A DNA stretch of 64,000 bases, from NCBI RefSeq assembly GCF_014205215.1, contig NZ_JACHNC010000001.1, forward strand, positions 1,927,001-1,991,000. Direction: 5' to 3'. This document shows, piece after piece, positions 745 to 15,049 of this stretch; position 1 is the first letter of the stretch, and each line of letters starts with the position of its first letter. The stretch comes from Actinoplanes lobatus (GTDB taxonomy: Bacteria; Actinomycetota; Actinomycetes; Mycobacteriales; Micromonosporaceae). The notes beneath the pieces are model-generated. The model did not search any database and was not told the origin of the DNA. It saw nothing but the letters and a program-made list of their open reading frames with translations. The position numbers and the translations under genes were made by a program.

Positions 745-829
745 GGAGGATTCGCCTAGAGGCCTAGGGCGCACGCTTGGAAAGCGTGTTGGGTTAACAC
801 CCTCACGAGTTCGAATCTCGTATCCTCCG
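745..829 (+). tRNA. serT-GGA: tRNA-Ser (anticodon GGA), integration site of the AICE
   Basis: The cloverleaf is complete: acceptor GGAGGAT pairs with ATCCTCC (822-828), a long variable arm typical of Ser tRNAs is present, the TTCGAAT T-loop is intact, and the anticodon loop TTGGAAA gives anticodon GGA. CCA is not encoded. From the anticodon loop onwards the 3' half is duplicated at 14994-15049, so this gene was the attB site. The gene stays intact because the element supplies or preserves the 3' half. Confidence 0.95.
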
Positions 830-831
830 CC
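776..831 (+). repeat. attL, 56-bp direct repeat
   Basis: These 56 bases run from the anticodon stem of tRNA-Ser(GGA) to just past its 3' end and are identical to 14994-15049. Tyrosine integrases of actinomycete elements typically recombine within such tRNA 3' halves. The repeat ends where 832 (T) differs from 15050 (A). Confidence 0.93.
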
Positions 832-903: not shown

Positions 904-2223
904 CTACCCGCGCCGTCTCAGTTTCCGTCTCAGTTGCGACCGGCTGACCCCCGCGACAGGCTCGGCGGCCGGCGCCTCCGCCGCCTTGACTGGCTGCCAG
1001 ATCAGGCCGCCCACCCGGTCGGCGATGTTTGCGCGAACCGGGTCGCTCACGTGCTGGTAGCGAGCAGCCATGCCGGTCGTAGCCCAACCCATCACGTCCA
1101 TCACGGCGCGTTCCTGGATGCCCAGCAGCATCAGGACAGTGGCGGCGGTGTGGCGGGCGTCATGGAGTCGGGCATCCCGAACGCACGCGTCCTTGAGTAG
1201 CTTCTTCCATTCGTGGTAGTCGGTATTCGGGTTGAGCGCGCGGCCGATCGGCGTAGTGAATACCCAGCCGCCATCCTCCCAGAGTTGGGCGGCTGTGCGC
1301 CTCTCTTTGTCTTGCGTATCCTTGTGTGCTCGAAGTAGCGTCACCACTTCGTCTGGAATTCCCATCACGCGGCGACCAGCGCGCGATTTCGTGTCGTCGG
1401 TATCTTTGTTGATTTGCTTGCGGCGCGGGCAATATCCCGATTTCTTGCCGCACGGATCGGTGCAACCGTGGGCGTATTTCGGTCGCAGGCGATTCTTTCG
1501 GACGCGGAGCGACTTCTTTTCCAGGTCGATGTTTTCCCATCGCAGTCCGAGCACTTCACCTTGACGTAGCCCGAGGGCAAGCGCGATTGCCCATCGAGTG
1601 CCATTCCGTGGTCGCTGCGCGGCTTGCGCAAGAATCCGTTGCACCTCCTCTACGGAATAGGGCTCGACCTCCTTTTCGCTCAAGCGCGGCGACTTGGCGA
1701 GAAGTACCGGGTTTTTGGTGAGATGCCCCCGGCGCTCCGCCTCATTCAAGGCCGTCCGCAGGGTACGGAATGCCTGGTGAGCGGTTCCGGCAGCACTACC
1801 GCCATCCTGCATCTTCCGCATCAACTTTTCGATGTGCTCGGGCGTGAGTTTCTCCAGTCGATGCGCTCCGATACCGGGGATCAGGTGCACCTTGACGGCG
1901 ACCCGGTAGCCGTCCGCCGTGTTCGGCTTGACGTTCGGCGGACAGGCGATGTTCTCGATCCAGAACATGAGCCATTTGGCAACGGTCCAGAACGATCCGG
2001 CCTTCCGCACCTTGCCGGAGTCGCGTTGCCGCTCCAGCGCACGGACGGCCCGGATCACTTCGGTTTCCGTCTTCCGTTCAACGTGCCGACGGTCCGGCGT
2101 GCCGTCGTCCTTGACGCCCATGGTTACTCGCCCGTGCCATTTCCCATCGGCGCCCTGATAAATCGACGATTCGCCGTTGGGCCGACGCTTCGCCTCTCCA
2201 TCGTCAGATCCGCGTTTCGCCAT
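904..2223 (-). CDS. int: Tyrosine recombinase / site-specific integrase of the AICE
   Basis: This 439-residue integrase catalyses recombination between attP and the tRNA-Ser attB, and with Xis the reverse reaction. The catalytic residues are visible: R220 in LGLRQGEVLGLRW, a candidate Lys near 279, H354-x-x-R357 (LHDARHTAA), W380 and the nucleophile Y389 (MAARYQH). An N-terminal SAM-like core-binding domain covers about 75-165. The start at 2223 follows AAGGAG; the longer open frame upstream overlaps xis and is rejected. A CxxxC...C segment (about 254-265) inside the catalytic domain resembles the zinc-like insertion of actinomycete integrases. The last codons overlap the left arm-type repeat (913-935). 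It lies directly downstream of xis and next to attL, the usual AICE order. Confidence 0.95.
   Translation of the reverse strand: MAKRGSDDGEAKRRPNGESSIYQGADGKWHGRVTMGVKDDGTPDRRHVERKTETEVIRAVRALERQRDSGKVRKAGSFWTVAKWLMFWIENIACPPNVKPNTADGYRVAVKVHLIPGIGAHRLEKLTPEHIEKLMRKMQDGGSAAGTAHQAFRTLRTALNEAERRGHLTKNPVLLAKSPRLSEKEVEPYSVEEVQRILAQAAQRPRNGTRWAIALALGLRQGEVLGLRWENIDLEKKSLRVRKNRLRPKYAHGCTDPCGKKSGYCPRRKQINKDTDDTKSRAGRRVMGIPDEVVTLLRAHKDTQDKERRTAAQLWEDGGWVFTTPIGRALNPNTDYHEWKKLLKDACVRDARLHDARHTAATVLMLLGIQERAVMDVMGWATTGMAARYQHVSDPVRANIADRVGGLIWQPVKAAEAPAAEPVAGVSRSQLRRKLRRRG
913..935. repeat. Left arm-type integrase sites (two tandem CCGTCTCAGTT units)
   Basis: Two 11-bp CCGTCTCAGTT units occur 12 bases apart, inside the end of int, 82 bp from the attL core. 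The same unit pair, slightly diverged in its second copy, recurs in the same orientation at 14878-14900, 94 bp from attR. Direct repeats on both sides of the core are what arm-binding domains of tyrosine integrases recognise. The repeat is seen directly; the role is inferred. Confidence 0.6.
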
Positions 2224-2236
2224 TCTGTTTCTCCTT

Positions 2237-2449
2237 TCAGGCGGCGGCCGGTAGTTGGGTGTTCTGCTGACGCAGGCGGTTGATGTACTCGGTAAGGCAT
2301 TCAGCGGGGATGCGGCGGAGTCGGCCGATCTGAACGGACTCGATTTCGCCGCTGGAAACGAGCGCATAGGTGAGCGTGCGGCCGATGCCGAGCCGCTTCG
2401 CCGCTTGTTCGATGGTCAAGACGAGTGGAATGGCGTCCGTGTACTGCAT
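2237..2449 (-). CDS. xis: Excisionase / MerR-type helix-turn-helix DNA-binding protein
   Basis: This 70-residue protein contains the winged-helix signature LTIEQAAKRLGIGRT...GEIESVQIGRLRRIP, as in the helix_turn_helix_17 excisionase family. It probably bends attachment-site DNA and steers Int towards excision. It sits directly upstream of int with 13 bases between the two frames, the standard xis-int pair of AICEs. The ATG at 2449 is preceded by GGGAG (GGGAGACGCC). Confidence 0.88.
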   Translation of the reverse strand: MQYTDAIPLVLTIEQAAKRLGIGRTLTYALVSSGEIESVQIGRLRRIPAECLTEYINRLRQQNTQLPAAA

Positions 2450-2706: not shown

Positions 2707-2915
2707 AGCCGTACCAGCCGTACCAGCCGTACCAGTGCAGGTCAGGGGCGGTACGGCTTGTCGGGGCGGTACGGCTCAAGCCGTACCAGTGGCGTCGGCC
2801 GACGGGGGCGGGGGCATCTCGTCGAGGGTGGCCTGGTACGGCTGGAGCCGTACCACGTTGTCGAGCCGTACCGCCTCTGAGCTGGGCGGGTACGGCTGGT
2901 ACGGCTGGTACGGCT
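2707..2915. repeat. Mirror-symmetric array of twelve identical 9-bp sites (AGCCGTACC / GGTACGGCT)
   Basis: Forward copies (AGCCGTACC) start at 2707, 2716, 2725, 2779, 2846 and 2864. Reverse copies (GGTACGGCT) start at 2750, 2768, 2835, 2889, 2898 and 2907. Every copy has an exact mirror partner about the centre at 2811: start plus partner end is always 5622. The outer arms (2707-2733 and 2889-2915) are perfect 27-bp complements. Two inner pairs (2768-2787, 2835-2854) form 9-bp stems with 2-base loops. The spacers are only partly conserved, so selection acts on the sites. The right part lies in the 3' end of the DUF3631 gene and the rest is untranslated. Replication origin iterons are the likeliest role; a TraB-binding clt locus or a structured RNA are alternatives. 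Confidence 0.9.
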
Positions 2916-4002
2916 CTCCCTCCGGCTCGGGGCAGTAGCGCTGCCAGGCGTCGCCGAACACGGCGCGGCGGTAGCCCTTGGCCTGCCCGACCGGCTGAGG
3001 GAAGCGGATCGTGTCGGGCCGGATGTCGTACTCCCGAAGCAGCGTCCCGAGCCGCATCGGGGTGAGGCCGGTCCCGCCGTACTCCGACCACGGCGCTTCC
3101 GGGTCGGCCTTGAGCCGGTCGAGCAGCACGCCGGTCGGGATCGCCTCAGCGTCACCGAACGCGGCGCGGCAGTCGGTCAAGAGCCGGATGCGGTCGGACG
3201 TGACGGTGTTGCTGTCGCGCTCGGCGGTCAGCGACTCGGCCGCGTGCCGACCCCGATCGGGCCAGTCCCCGCCGGCCAGGTCGGCGACGGCGATTAGCGG
3301 TTCCCACGTGTCGGCCGCCCGGTCTTCCAGCGGCATGGTCGGCTCGGCGCGTTCGAGCACGTCGAGGCTGCCGCGTAGCCACTCGTTGAGGTCGTTGGCG
3401 AGTTGCCGCAGCGCGGGGCCGTCGCGGCGGTGCCGGTACGGCGAGACTGTCTCGCCCGGCGCGCGGCGCCGCATCCGGACCACGACGGCCCGGTCCTCGA
3501 TGGTGTCGGGCATCTGGCCGATGCCGGCGAGCGCGGCCATGGCGAACGTGCCGATCTTCTCGACCCGGTTACGGGCGTTGTCCCACCGGATCGTGGGCCG
3601 ATTGCGCTGGTGACCGGCGTTGAGCAGGCCACGCAACTCCTCGTTGGTCTCGGCCGCCTTGCCGCCGAAGATCGTGTCTGCCTCATCGACCAGCAGCGTC
3701 GGCGGGTCGTCCGAGCCGATCGACCGGTACACCGCCGCCGTGGACGCGTTGACGGTGATCAGCGGGTTGCAACAGGTCCCCTCGACCACGTCGAGCAGCC
3801 GGGACTTCCCGCATCGTTTCTCCGGGGCGCGGATTACCAGCCGGGGCGCGTGCGCCCATGCCTGTTGCGCGTGGGTGGCGGCGATCCACAACACGACAGC
3901 GTCGAGCGCTTCCGGCGAGGGAAGGACGACGTACTTCGTGAGTACGGCGTGCAGGCGGTCGAGGATCGCCGGTCCCTCGATCACCCGGTGGGGTTTGGTC
4001 AT
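2776..4002 (-). CDS. DUF3631-type AAA+/helicase-like ATPase (AICE replication)
   Basis: This 408-residue P-loop protein has Walker A RAPEKRCGKSRLL (59-70) and Walker B TLLVDEADT (102-110). An Arg-rich segment DRAVVVRMRRRAPGE and a C-terminal domain ending in RRAVFGDAWQRYC match proteins annotated as DUF3631, common in actinobacterial mobile elements and phages. The likely role is an ATP-driven helicase or initiator that works with the prim-pol encoded just upstream (32-base gap). The last ~45 residues are low-complexity and rich in P-Y-Q units because they are read through the 9-bp repeat array, so the tail is probably dictated by the DNA. The start at 4002 has GAGAGGAA upstream. Confidence 0.82.
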   Translation of the reverse strand: MTKPHRVIEGPAILDRLHAVLTKYVVLPSPEALDAVVLWIAATHAQQAWAHAPRLVIRAPEKRCGKSRLLDVVEGTCCNPLITVNASTAAVYRSIGSDDPPTLLVDEADTIFGGKAAETNEELRGLLNAGHQRNRPTIRWDNARNRVEKIGTFAMAALAGIGQMPDTIEDRAVVVRMRRRAPGETVSPYRHRRDGPALRQLANDLNEWLRGSLDVLERAEPTMPLEDRAADTWEPLIAVADLAGGDWPDRGRHAAESLTAERDSNTVTSDRIRLLTDCRAAFGDAEAIPTGVLLDRLKADPEAPWSEYGGTGLTPMRLGTLLREYDIRPDTIRFPQPVGQAKGYRRAVFGDAWQRYCPEPEGEPYQPYQPYPPSSEAVRLDNVVRLQPYQATLDEMPPPPSADATGTA

Positions 4003-4033: not shown

Positions 4034-5086
4034 TCATGCCGCCGCCCTCAGCAGCGCGACGCCTTCGGCTCGGAAGCCGCCCACGATGGCAGCGCGGGTG
4101 TCGCGGTCGGTCTGTCCGGCCGCCCGTCCGGCCTGGTAGAGGGCGGCGTACGCGTCGTCGGCGGTGATCGCTCCGGCGGCGACCATGCGAGCCACGCCGC
4201 GCGTCGCGCCGTAGAGGGTGTTGCGGCGGGTGCCCTCGGGGGCGGCGGCGACCGCTTGCAGGTTGGCGGCGAGCAGCGCGGCAGGGTCCGAGATGCCCAC
4301 CCCCCGGCCTAGCGGGGTCACCGTGCCGACGGGCGACACGGTGGGCGTCTCGACCGGCCGGGACAGCTCGACCAGCGCGCCGGGCATCTCGATCACCGCC
4401 CGGTCCCCGATCCGCCGGTACGGCTGACCGGTGGCCGGGTGGATCGACGGCGGCGCGACGACGTACCCGCCGTCAGCCTTGATGTCGACGCCGGGGTGAT
4501 CACGGAGCTTGGCGGTCAGGATGCCGCCGGGGTGGCGGTAGTACAGGTGCCACCCGCCGGACCCGGTCCGCACGGCGCGGGTGGGCGGCATCAGGTCGCG
4601 GTCGATCGTGCCGCCGTTGCGCGGGTCGATGTCAATCACGCACAGGTCGCAGATCCGGCCGGTCCGGATCGCCAGCAGCCCGCCAGGTACCCGCTGGTGC
4701 ATGGCGGCGATTCGGGCCGGGTCGCGGGTGGCGGCGTAGAAGCCGTGACAGGTCAGGTGACCGCACGACTCCGGATCGTGACCGGGGTCGATCTCGGCTT
4801 TCGGGCAGACAGCACAGTTGGCGACCGGCCGCTTGGACCGGCCGAGCAGAAAGACGGGGTAGCCCTCAGCGGCCAGCACCAGCGCGGCGGGCAGCGTCGG
4901 GACATAGTCGGGCATGGTCGACTCCCAACGGTTGATCACAGACGGCGCGTCCGCGCGGCCGACCAGCGCGGCCGGGGTGTGCGCGGGACAACGCGGTCCG
5001 GGCAGGTAGGGGCGGACATGGTCGGTGGCGAGGCAGTAGCGGCGCTCGCCACCGATCCAGTGGCCGCATATGGTGGCCGGGCTCAT
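4034..5086 (-). CDS. Bifunctional DNA primase/polymerase (prim-pol) of the AICE
   Basis: This 350-residue replication protein would make primers and extend DNA at the element origin (RepPP type). Prim-pol motifs are present: the metal-binding DID at 152-154 (VIDIDPRNGG), TGSGGWHLYY (175-184) with the catalytic His, and DIKADGGYVVAPPS (201-214). Cys/His pairs at 91-113 (CAVC...CGHLTCH) look like a zinc knuckle. A C-terminal helical domain (about 265-345) follows. The start overlaps the upstream gene by ATGA. A second candidate start is the ATG at 4915, which has GGGAG six bases upstream and would drop a Cys-rich extension of 57 residues; both may be used. Confidence 0.88.
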   Translation of the reverse strand: MSPATICGHWIGGERRYCLATDHVRPYLPGPRCPAHTPAALVGRADAPSVINRWESTMPDYVPTLPAALVLAAEGYPVFLLGRSKRPVANCAVCPKAEIDPGHDPESCGHLTCHGFYAATRDPARIAAMHQRVPGGLLAIRTGRICDLCVIDIDPRNGGTIDRDLMPPTRAVRTGSGGWHLYYRHPGGILTAKLRDHPGVDIKADGGYVVAPPSIHPATGQPYRRIGDRAVIEMPGALVELSRPVETPTVSPVGTVTPLGRGVGISDPAALLAANLQAVAAAPEGTRRNTLYGATRGVARMVAAGAITADDAYAALYQAGRAAGQTDRDTRAAIVGGFRAEGVALLRAAA

Positions 5087-6237: not shown

Positions 6238-6328
6238 GACCCGCGACCGGTGAATGTCTGTGCTGACCAGGCCGGTCGCGGGTCGAGTCGCGTTGACGCG
6301 ACCGGTCGCGGGGACGCCGCGACCGGTC
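6238..6328. repeat. Cluster of five GCGACCGG octamers; candidate clt (transfer) locus
   Basis: GCGACCGG lies at 6243-6250, 6298-6305 and 6319-6326, and its complement at 6272-6279 and 6303-6310. Two of them form the 14-bp palindrome CGCGACCGGTCGCG (6297-6310), and 6238-6250 with 6272-6284 are perfect 13-bp inverted repeats. TraB proteins of Streptomyces elements bind 8-bp repeats in the clt locus. This cluster touches the stop codon of the TraB-like gene. An ordinary terminator made of the inverted repeats is the alternative. Confidence 0.5.
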
Positions 6329-8483
6329 AGGCGGCCTTGCGGCGGTCGATCGCGGCGTCGATGTCGTCGACCTTGGCTCCCTTGAGAGCCCGCCCGCCGC
6401 GTTTGACATCTACGCTGCGTACACCGAACGCGCGGACCTGAGCCGAGATCGATTCGGCGGTGATGTCGGCGTAGTGCTCCGGCAGACGACCGGCCAGCCG
6501 CTCGGCCAGGTCCTCCCACTGCAAGCCGTTCTCGCCGCGCTCGAACATCGAGCGCACGTCGGCGAGCACGTCGCGGGAGATCCGGGCCACGTCCTCCCCG
6601 GCGGCCATACCGGTCAGCGTCCCCGTCTGTTCCCGCAGGCCACGAGCGGCGATCAGGATCTTCTCGGCGTCGTCGCCGTCGGCGAAGAACGTGCGCACCG
6701 TCGGCGTCGCGTCGGTGGCACCACGTAGGATGCCGACGCCCTTGTAGGACGGCAGCAGCGTGGACGAGTCGAAGCCTTCCGAGTACGCGCCGGAACCGAG
6801 TGCCAGGTCACTGACCTGCCACGACCCGGTGCGCAGGCTGAATCGCACCTGGTGGTTGTCGCGGAAGCTGATGAACTGCTGAGCGACCTGCCCGGTGCCG
6901 ACTCCGCTGGGCCGCTGGGTTGCGTCGACGAAGATGACGCCGGCCGCCGGGGCGACCTTGACCAGATACACCAGCAGCGCGGCGATCTCCTTGGAGATGT
7001 CCCCGAGATCGAAGTACTCCTGGAACTCGTCCAGGATCACCATGCGGACCGGCATCTTGTACTTCGGATCACGGGCGATCTCTCGGGTCAGCTTGCCTTC
7101 CGGGCACACGTCCACGGGCAGCTTGGACAGCCGCTCGTAACGGTCCTGAACGTCGGCCTTGATCTCCCGCAGCGCTTCCAACACGATCTCGGCCGGGTCG
7201 CCGTCGCGGGTCATCGCCAGACCGAACGCGCACCGGTCGGCGATCAACGCGAACTTGCGCCAGTCCGGCTTACCGCCACCGTCGAACACTGTGATCTTCA
7301 CGTACGGGTCGAGCGCGGCGTACAGGCCGAGCAACCGCGCGGCCCACGTCTTACCCTGCCGGGGCTGAGCGGCGATCATGATCGAGATCCACATCAGCAG
7401 GATCTCGACCTTGTTGCCGCGCTCGTCCAGGCCGAACGGGGCAGGCTGCCAGATGTCGGTGGGCTTGCACCGCAGCAGCGGCGTGCTCCCCACACCAACC
7501 GACAGCGGGTCACGGTCGGCCACCCACAGCGTGTGCCGCCGGTGCGAGGTGGCGTCGCGGGTGATGAACACCTGAGAGATCGCCACGTCCAGGCCGGACG
7601 CGATCGCGCCGCGCGCCTTGACCGCGTCGTCGAACGTCTTGCCGTACGGCAGATCGATCGACACCTGAGAGCCGGTCCCGGACCGGTCCCGGGCCATCGT
7701 CGAACCGAACGCCACCTGTTGGTGGGACCGGTCCGGGTGGCCGAGCCCGGCGGCGTAGTACGCCCGAAGGATGATGTCCGGGTTGATCCGGCGGAACCGT
7801 CCGGCGACGGTCGCCGGGGTGATGATCGGCCGGTCGTCGGGGCGGCCGATGTGGGCCAGGAACGCCACCACGCCCGCGGCGCTCGCCAGCAGCGCCCACG
7901 TCGGTGCGGTCGCGTACAGGATCGGTCCGCCGATCAGCAGCGTGAGCAGACCGGCCAGCAGCACGATCCCGCGCCACATCCGGGTGGCCTTGACCTCCCG
8001 GTGCAGCTTGAGCCACATCGCCGGGTCGTTGGCGTCGGCGGCGGCCTGCCGCAGCCCGTACTGCTCCGACACCCACCACCACTTGATCTGGCGGCCGAGC
8101 AGCCGGAACGCGCCGACGATCGACCAGAACGCGGCGAGCAGCGCGTACCAGGGCGAGCGCAGCGCGTGGAAGCCGAGCCGGTACGCGCCGATCGCGGCGG
8201 CCTGCTTCGCGCTGTGCTTGATGTTGGGCCAGGTGTTCCAGCCGACCGGCACGATCGGGATCCGGCCGCCGGTCGCGGCCGGCGGCGGGTCGACCGGGTC
8301 GCCGCCGCGCTGCGGCTCGGCGTCCAGGGCCACCTCGAAGTGGGTGCCGCCGGGCTCGGCCGCCGCCCGCCGGGCTCGGGCCGTGTCCAGGTCCACCACG
8401 GCGGCGTCGGGCTGGTCAGCCAGGTCGTATTCGGCGGCGCTCCAGTCGAACCCGTCAGGGCCGGGAGTCGGGTTGTCGCTCAC
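6327..8483 (-). CDS. traB: FtsK/SpoIIIE-type DNA translocase, TraB/TraSA-like conjugation protein
   Basis: This 718-residue protein is the presumed motor that moves double-stranded AICE DNA between mycelial cells. It has an acidic N-terminal region, weak helices near 110-130, two clear membrane helices (about 172-210), a Walker A AAQPRQGKT (371-379), Walker B MVILDEFQE (481-489), and VIFVDATQRP (517-526). A C-terminal winged-helix-like domain (about 630-700), equivalent to FtsK gamma, would read the target repeats. The GTG at 8483 is chosen because GGAGG lies 8 bases upstream and its TGA partner ends the upstream gene (GTGA overlap). No relaxase is present, as expected for this transfer type. 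Confidence 0.92.
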   Translation of the reverse strand: MSDNPTPGPDGFDWSAAEYDLADQPDAAVVDLDTARARRAAAEPGGTHFEVALDAEPQRGGDPVDPPPAATGGRIPIVPVGWNTWPNIKHSAKQAAAIGAYRLGFHALRSPWYALLAAFWSIVGAFRLLGRQIKWWWVSEQYGLRQAAADANDPAMWLKLHREVKATRMWRGIVLLAGLLTLLIGGPILYATAPTWALLASAAGVVAFLAHIGRPDDRPIITPATVAGRFRRINPDIILRAYYAAGLGHPDRSHQQVAFGSTMARDRSGTGSQVSIDLPYGKTFDDAVKARGAIASGLDVAISQVFITRDATSHRRHTLWVADRDPLSVGVGSTPLLRCKPTDIWQPAPFGLDERGNKVEILLMWISIMIAAQPRQGKTWAARLLGLYAALDPYVKITVFDGGGKPDWRKFALIADRCAFGLAMTRDGDPAEIVLEALREIKADVQDRYERLSKLPVDVCPEGKLTREIARDPKYKMPVRMVILDEFQEYFDLGDISKEIAALLVYLVKVAPAAGVIFVDATQRPSGVGTGQVAQQFISFRDNHQVRFSLRTGSWQVSDLALGSGAYSEGFDSSTLLPSYKGVGILRGATDATPTVRTFFADGDDAEKILIAARGLREQTGTLTGMAAGEDVARISRDVLADVRSMFERGENGLQWEDLAERLAGRLPEHYADITAESISAQVRAFGVRSVDVKRGGRALKGAKVDDIDAAIDRRKAA

Positions 8484-8863
8484 GGACGGTCCTCCGTTCC
8501 GTTCATGGTGCCTGGGCATTCGAGGGGGTTGGGCAGGCAAGACCCGATCAGGCCGGGGTATTCGCCGATGTCGAACAGGCCGATGAACGTGCTCACCGGT
8601 TCGGGCACGGTGGCGCACACCGTGCCGCCCGGCGTTTCGAGGTGCACCGCGTCCGAGCCGACCGCGACGCCGGTCAGCCGCGCGTCCCGATCGAGCAGGT
8701 ACCGGGCGATCGGGCACCAGTTCGGGTTCTCGGGCTCGCCCTTGACTCCGGCGCACATGAGTTCCGTCGCCACGTCCTCAGCGGTGCGGCCGAGCGCGTA
8801 CATCAGGTACTCGGCGTTGTTCCGGACGGCGTCCGGGTCGATGTCGAGGTGAACGAGGGTCAC
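8480..8863 (-). CDS. Conserved-looking AICE protein, unknown function
   Basis: A 127-residue acidic protein with a helical N-terminus (VRNNAEYLMYALGRTAEDVATELM) and an NWCPIARYLL motif. The remainder is beta-rich and ends in a Cys-Pro-rich tail. It is coupled to the translocase gene by a four-base overlap, so a role in transfer or in its control is plausible. I did not recognise a named family. Confidence 0.7.
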   Translation of the reverse strand: MTLVHLDIDPDAVRNNAEYLMYALGRTAEDVATELMCAGVKGEPENPNWCPIARYLLDRDARLTGVAVGSDAVHLETPGGTVCATVPEPVSTFIGLFDIGEYPGLIGSCLPNPLECPGTMNGTEDRP

Positions 8864-14983: not shown

Positions 14984-14993
14984 GCACGCAGAC

Positions 14994-15049
14994 TTGGAAA
15001 GCGTGTTGGGTTAACACCCTCACGAGTTCGAATCTCGTATCCTCCGCCA
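14994..15049 (+). repeat. attR, 56-bp direct repeat (tRNA-Ser 3' half remnant)
   Basis: Identical to 776-831. It starts in the anticodon stem, lacks the 5' half of the tRNA and cannot make a tRNA. It marks the right end of the AICE; chromosomal DNA resumes at 15050. Confidence 0.93.

Follow-up and report, generated by a model that had tools for sequence, protein, structure and literature searches.

We propose that a 209-bp array of twelve identical 9-bp iterons (AGCCGTACC/GGTACGGCT), located at 2707..2915 of the window, the whole 64-kb stretch of Actinoplanes lobatus DNA analysed here, is the replication origin of an AICE, and we put the probability of this sequence-based reading at about 0.8. 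By analogy with known origins, this is how an origin would look: sites for the initiator, arranged in mirror order, at the point where the initiator's own gene ends. The iterons start at 2707, 2716, 2725, 2779, 2846 and 2864 on the plus strand and at 2750, 2768, 2835, 2889, 2898 and 2907 on the minus strand. In all six mirror pairs, the start of one iteron and the end of its partner add up to 5622, with the axis at 2811; the outer 27 bp are completely complementary, and the 83-nt arms are 86% complementary. This exact recount agrees with an earlier note on the same DNA, which had described the twelve 9-mers, their mirror order, the constant sum and the complementary ends. Shuffling the whole 64 kb yields 0.32 copies of AGCCGTACC on average and two at most (100 shuffles). 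With one mismatch allowed, the array region holds 13 clustered sites, 12 of them mirror-paired, compared to 4.7 on average for random placement of 13 sites. The tandem 18-mer (at most one mismatch) has no second occurrence in the 10.4-Mb genome. A thirteenth exact iteron at 4417-4425, within the prim-pol gene, abuts CTGACC and encodes G-Q-P-Y; it may reflect chance or coding constraint.

Read from one end, the array consists of an outer tandem triplet on the plus strand (2707..2733), a conserved box CAGGTCA in the spacer of this arm (2738..2744), an inner iteron on the minus strand (2750..2758) and an inner dyad (2768..2787) formed by the iterons 2768-2776 (minus) and 2779-2787 (plus), which overlaps the stop codon of the DUF3631 gene. 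Beyond the axis follow the mirror dyad (2835..2854; iterons 2835-2843, minus, and 2846-2854, plus), an inner iteron on the plus strand (2864..2872), the second arm's spacer with the box TGAGCTG (2878..2884) and the second outer triplet on the minus strand (2889..2915). Seven of the twelve iterons lie within the DUF3631 coding sequence, which ends at 2776, so that the array is indeed half embedded in a gene, as had been noted, and its right part, the triplet 2889..2915, encodes the P-Y-Q repeat of the protein tail.

The array is located between xis (2237..2449, minus strand; excisionase-family DNA-binding protein, TIGR01764) and the end of the DUF3631 initiator gene (2776..4002, minus strand; PF12307, RepAM type, 408 aa). 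They are accompanied by a tyrosine integrase gene (904..2223, minus strand, start codon assigned by eye in an open frame extending to 2367), a prim-pol gene (4034..5086, minus strand; PF09250) and a weakly matching TraB/FtsK-like transfer ATPase gene (6327..8756, minus strand), whose product matches an annotated TraB with a BLASTP E value of 2e-4 and has no Pfam match at 1e-3 and no NCBIfam match at 0.01. The element of about 14.2 kb is bounded by two plus-strand copies of a 56-bp att repeat, one at 776..831, the 3' part of a tRNA-Ser gene (745-831), and the other at 14993..15048. It thus combines the tyrosine integrase, xis and tRNA att repeats of an AICE with the corresponding replication module, RepAM and/or prim-pol. 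According to passages of PMC3218068, AICEs replicate once excised, replication is required for the transfer of pSAM2, and the initiator RepAM of pMEA300 is tabled as DUF3631.

Conservation of the array in related elements

A protein search provided 41 related DUF3631 loci from named genomes, including Actinoplanes, Actinomadura, Streptosporangium, Nonomuraea, Pseudonocardia, Saccharothrix, Kribbella and Streptomyces, in which sites were sought with iteron words picked for each locus. The results for L042 and L045 are identical, and the covariation, held-out, GC, box and spacer counts leave out L045. An array of at least five sites is present at the DUF3631 gene end in 40 of the 41 loci, and mirror pairing exceeds that of 400 random placements (P <= 0.03) in 34 of the 41, with 5 to 13 iterons per locus; the symmetric array that the earlier note required at the same place in close relatives is therefore there. 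A motif-free detector reported an array in 30 of 41 loci, always just one per locus, and the 47 shuffled controls yielded none. The 11 loci missed comprise ten with shorter or degenerate arrays and L029, where DUF3631 is present, the array is absent and the next reading frame follows directly after the gene (L029:6960-7320); this element may be defunct or may have its origin elsewhere. The arrays of L009, L014, L016, L031, L033 and L044 are either incomplete or without significant mirror order, and the repeat score of L042 does not exceed that of shuffled DNA.

In many loci most sites share one word, and in others, such as L025, L028 and L040, the sites vary. The words differ between loci (AGCCGTACC, AGCCGTCCC, ATCCGTMCC, ACCCGTCCC, AGCCGTACR), and distant DUF3631 loci use still others, among them TCCGCTACC, TCCGCCACA and TCCGCAACA. 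Two distant array-bearing relatives are deposited as circles, one of 14.3 kb (L064), with an array that is not significantly mirrored, and one of 13.5 kb (L065), with a mirrored array (P 0.018). When the tandem 18-mer was used as the query, 10 of 249 genomes matched, at 13 distinct places: six DUF3631 arrays including that of the window, two arrays of DUF3987 elements, and five lone repeats without an array (L070-L074). With a looser pattern of iteron plus box there were matches in 67 of 394 genomes, mostly one each, and most of them look like chance. Two records deserve separate mention. The one named Pseudomonas phage Phipami28 encodes a DUF3631 protein (L066:7710-9260) at which no array was found; it may hold bacterial DNA, since ABC transporter genes are nearby. 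The other, NZ_LT559118.1 (L067), carries a DUF3631 with M331 and a mixed AGCCGTAAC-type array, and is an 11.85-Mb record listed as a plasmid that is evidently a Nonomuraea chromosome.

The arrays follow a common grammar: outer tandem iterons are followed by a box-bearing spacer, an inner site, a second spacer (8-9 bp) and one or two <NN> dyads, after which the order is roughly mirrored. Read along the gene, the CTGACCWG-like box, which the earlier note had missed, has the form CWGSTCA in the left arm and TGASCWG in the right arm. Of 37 arrays, 33 have both forms in their spacers, whereas 0.01 would be expected when letters are shuffled inside spacers. This count covers arrays with at least seven sites (six smaller ones omitted) and uses a box defined after inspecting the array layouts; L021, L042, L064 and L067 lack the pair. 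The box may be a host-factor or priming site, as it is independent of both the iteron and the initiator family. The earlier note had regarded the spacers as drifted, which holds for those free of the box (0.31 complementary versus 0.23 when shuffled) and does not hold for those adjoining the outer iterons (0.62), owing to the conserved CWGSTCA/TGASCWG box.

The position of the array relative to the gene varies: it lies wholly inside in L028, L035 and L041, astride the gene end in the window, and wholly outside in L018, L026 and L038. The iterons are read in different frames, giving DUF3631 tails of S-R-T, A-V-P or P-Y-Q, which suggests that these repeats are translated iterons. Since its position shifts across the stop codon and between reading frames, the array acts as DNA. 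Where a site deviates from its word, the deviating position is matched in the mirror partner in only 6 of 66 cases. Given the varying position and frames, this low matching and the weak complementarity of box-free spacers, the array cannot be accounted for by the protein tail or by base pairing.

Similar arrays are found next to another initiator family. In genome G239, two elements (L068 and L069) with related int and xis genes carry a AGCCGTCCC array, and no DUF3631 or prim-pol match was found in 18 kb of either. The initiator of L068 is a DUF3987 protein, and L069 encodes a protein 93% identical to it. Relatives of DUF3987 occur in 10 of 248 genomes of the order, and 9 of 11 loci, including L068 and L069 and leaving out the fragments L164 and L167, have an array at the DUF3987 gene end with ACGAAC, GCGAAC, AACGAA or ACGCGG words (0 of 100 shuffles for each). 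In raw counts, at least one box form is present in 10 of the 11 and both in 9, mostly in the reverse order compared to DUF3631 arrays. L068 and L069 themselves have an ACGAAC array at this position. Between int and the DUF3987 gene, both show short arrays side by side, of ATGAGC, ATCCAC, CGTCCC and TACGAA in L068 (7790-9720) and of AGTTAG, CGCTAG, ATCCAC, CGTCCC and ACGAAC in L069 (7920-9700), with TTCCCTG also visible by eye and some accompanied by CTGACC-type boxes. These multiple short arrays may be origins for several initiators. G239 also hosts a DUF3631 element with a CCGTCCC-word array. Elsewhere, pairs of elements whose iteron words are similar occur together in a single genome (L021 with L023, L028 with L030); having a word in common thus does not preclude coexistence, at least while the elements are integrated.

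Covariation of the iteron with DUF3631

In most loci base 7 of the iteron is A or C. Over 40 loci, this base is strongly associated with residue 331 of DUF3631 (T, the residue of the window, with A and N with C), with |phi| 0.95 and a permutation P of 5e-4, the maximum among 2000 permutations being 0.67. None of the best columns of the other proteins is significant: 0.47 for PrimPol (36 loci), 0.51 for Xis (32), 0.50 for Int (35) and 0.58 for TraB (33, in a mixed alignment gathered with three different TraB queries). On the tree of the training loci, six independent pairs agree (p 0.03). Residue 331 lies near the end of the DUF3631 domain in a stretch that appears helix-turn-helix-like by eye (...LLREYDIRPD-T-IRF...).

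The T/N versus A/C rule was fixed in advance and then scored on two further sets of 53 and 49 loci, weaker or fragmentary matches being left out. After restriction to non-redundant loci (below 95% identity) readable by one fixed script, 59 held-out loci remained; 29 loci of the whole set were unreadable, many having other words. The rule holds in 49 of the 55 held-out loci with T or N (T with A in 22 of 24, N with C in 27 of 31), and the other 4 of the 59 have another residue or a gap at 331. The misfits are L150, L152, L189, L190, L193 and L202 among the held-out loci, L043 and L067 in the training set and, outside the 49/55 count, L119 (T with ACTCGTCAC, read by eye). Two patterns were noticed post hoc: an acidic residue 330 in all four N/A misfits and in the training exception L043, and a change of R333 to T accompanying a change of the last iteron base from C to G (3 of 3).

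A tree-aware test was made on 87 rows whose arrays read SCGTMCC and whose residue 331 is T or N, and hence without misfits such as L043, L067, L150, L152, L190 and L193. With the helix columns excluded from the tree, the minimum number of changes is 21 for base 7 and 22 for residue 331, the two agree in 85 of these 87 rows, and all seven independent pairs on supported branches go in the same direction. Residue 298 is also associated with iteron base 2 (0.76, 88 loci), which may reflect shared descent. Mapped on protein trees of 26 common loci, base 7 changes 7 times for DUF3631 against 8.2 when shuffled (P 0.25) and 8 times for the other proteins (P 0.55-0.59). The covariation signal thus resides in one DUF3631 column and not in the protein trees.

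These data indicate that DUF3631 is the likely reader of the iterons, via its C-terminal part, and we hold this with somewhat more confidence than the origin function. The suggestion in the earlier note that the ATPase binds iterons at an AICE origin is well supported at the level of sequence, as the array accompanies the DUF3631 gene and residue 331 covaries with the iteron. Prim-pol, the other reader suggested there, is not supported: it has no significant column, and no prim-pol match lies within 6 kb upstream in L028, L038 and L039. A sequence comparison of DUF3631 with PDB chains gave no match at E <= 1, and a profile found only V-ATPase subunit F (E 0.4-0.5).

Origin function and alternative readings

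The array adjoins or overlaps the 3' end of the initiator gene, which is where a PICI-type origin is located. As described in passages of PMC6092414, PICI/SaPI elements likewise carry int, xis, a primase and an initiator, and their origin, in the order pri-rep then ori, lies directly 3' of the initiator gene and contains two iteron sets flanking an AT-rich region. In contrast, the centre of the AICE array is GC-rich (77% in the window), and no marked AT-rich region was found, the 50-bp GC means ranging from 0.64 to 0.78 over 37 loci with no dip at the array. The AICE array further differs in its mirror-image arms, its extra CTGACCWG-like box, its frequent overlap with the coding sequence and its initiator, which is DUF3631 or DUF3987. 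The pMEA300 RepAM module (DUF3631, PF12307) represents the same initiator family and element class as the window, and the passages of PMC3218068 concerned describe no origin for it. Among the matches listed for literature on AICEs, iterons and origins, no origin of the DUF3631 type appears in the parts of the texts covered (including PMC3218068, PMC3364876, PMC9513070 and PMC7433901); the primary work on pMEA300 or the 2008 review of AICEs may already have described such repeats.

The alternative that survives best, although we consider it unlikely, is that the DUF3631-bound array is mainly an operator or a copy-number (handcuffing) locus that represses the initiator or over-replication, the true start being elsewhere. 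The overlap with the initiator gene end, the position ahead of xis-int and the lack of an AT-rich melting site would all suit such a locus, and plasmid iteron arrays can serve both replication start and copy control. However, the array is downstream of the initiator gene, elements with similar words are co-resident, at least when integrated, and 5 to 13 mostly mirror-ordered sites with two boxes would seem to exceed the needs of an operator.

It is far less probable that the array is a TraB loading site (clt) for conjugative transfer of double-stranded DNA, as the earlier note had also considered. AICEs depend on a region of short repeats that TraB recognises, but no TraB column tracks the iteron. 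Moreover, across the 41 loci the best TraB-query matches vary between 23 and 68% identity, yet the array persists, and L024, L027, L028 and L038 have no TraB match within 6 kb upstream. An excision or integration site read by Xis or Int is equally improbable. The array adjoins xis, and in L068 and L069 the AGCCGTCCC array occurs with related int and xis in the absence of DUF3631. Yet these two elements have their own array at the DUF3987 end and share their genome with the CCGTCCC-word DUF3631 element, no Xis or Int column tracks the iteron, and the att repeats are 1.9 and 12 kb from the array. In addition, 8 of 40 loci have no match to Xis, a short protein that may be missed, and all eight have arrays, three of which (L014, L016, L031) are not mirrored. 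Finally, a structured RNA or cruciform in which the symmetry serves strand folding, another earlier suggestion, is highly improbable despite the complementary arms, because deviating positions and box-free spacers are so rarely matched between them, pairing does not require tandem copies of one word, and no Rfam family matches the array at gathering score.

Palindromic viral origins, such as those of SV40 and phage P4, are read by the AAA+ helicases T antigen and alpha. The proposed AICE origin may resemble them in having inverted sets of short sites where helicase-initiators assemble, a resemblance that does not imply homology. The architecture, conservation and position of the array and the joint change of word and residue, all visible in the sequences, suggest the following model. 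The AAA+-like initiator DUF3631 would bind the 9-bp iterons via a helix close to the C-terminus of its DUF3631 domain, with residue 331 helping to choose base 7. As the arms are mirror images, the excised circle would carry two oppositely oriented initiator assemblies, each next to a CTGACCWG-like box. These could then launch two outward forks by opening the DNA or loading replication proteins, and prim-pol would usually supply the primers.

A broader reading, which we advance tentatively and at somewhat less than even odds, is that mirror-ordered 9-bp iterons with a CTGACCWG-like box at the 3' end of an AAA+-like initiator gene represent a portable origin format of actinobacterial mobile elements, common to DUF3631 and DUF3987. 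Its address would be rewritten by single substitutions in the initiator (T331/N331 for A/C), and some elements, such as L068 and L069, would carry arrays addressed to initiators that they do not encode, as if borrowing replication from co-residents.

Taken together, the analysis provides a precise origin candidate in many genomes, with its likely reader and residue named, and the pairing of T331/N331 with base 7 would constitute a simple specificity switch. If this reading is true, the origins of these elements could be located by sequence, and one could test which co-resident elements are able to replicate one another.
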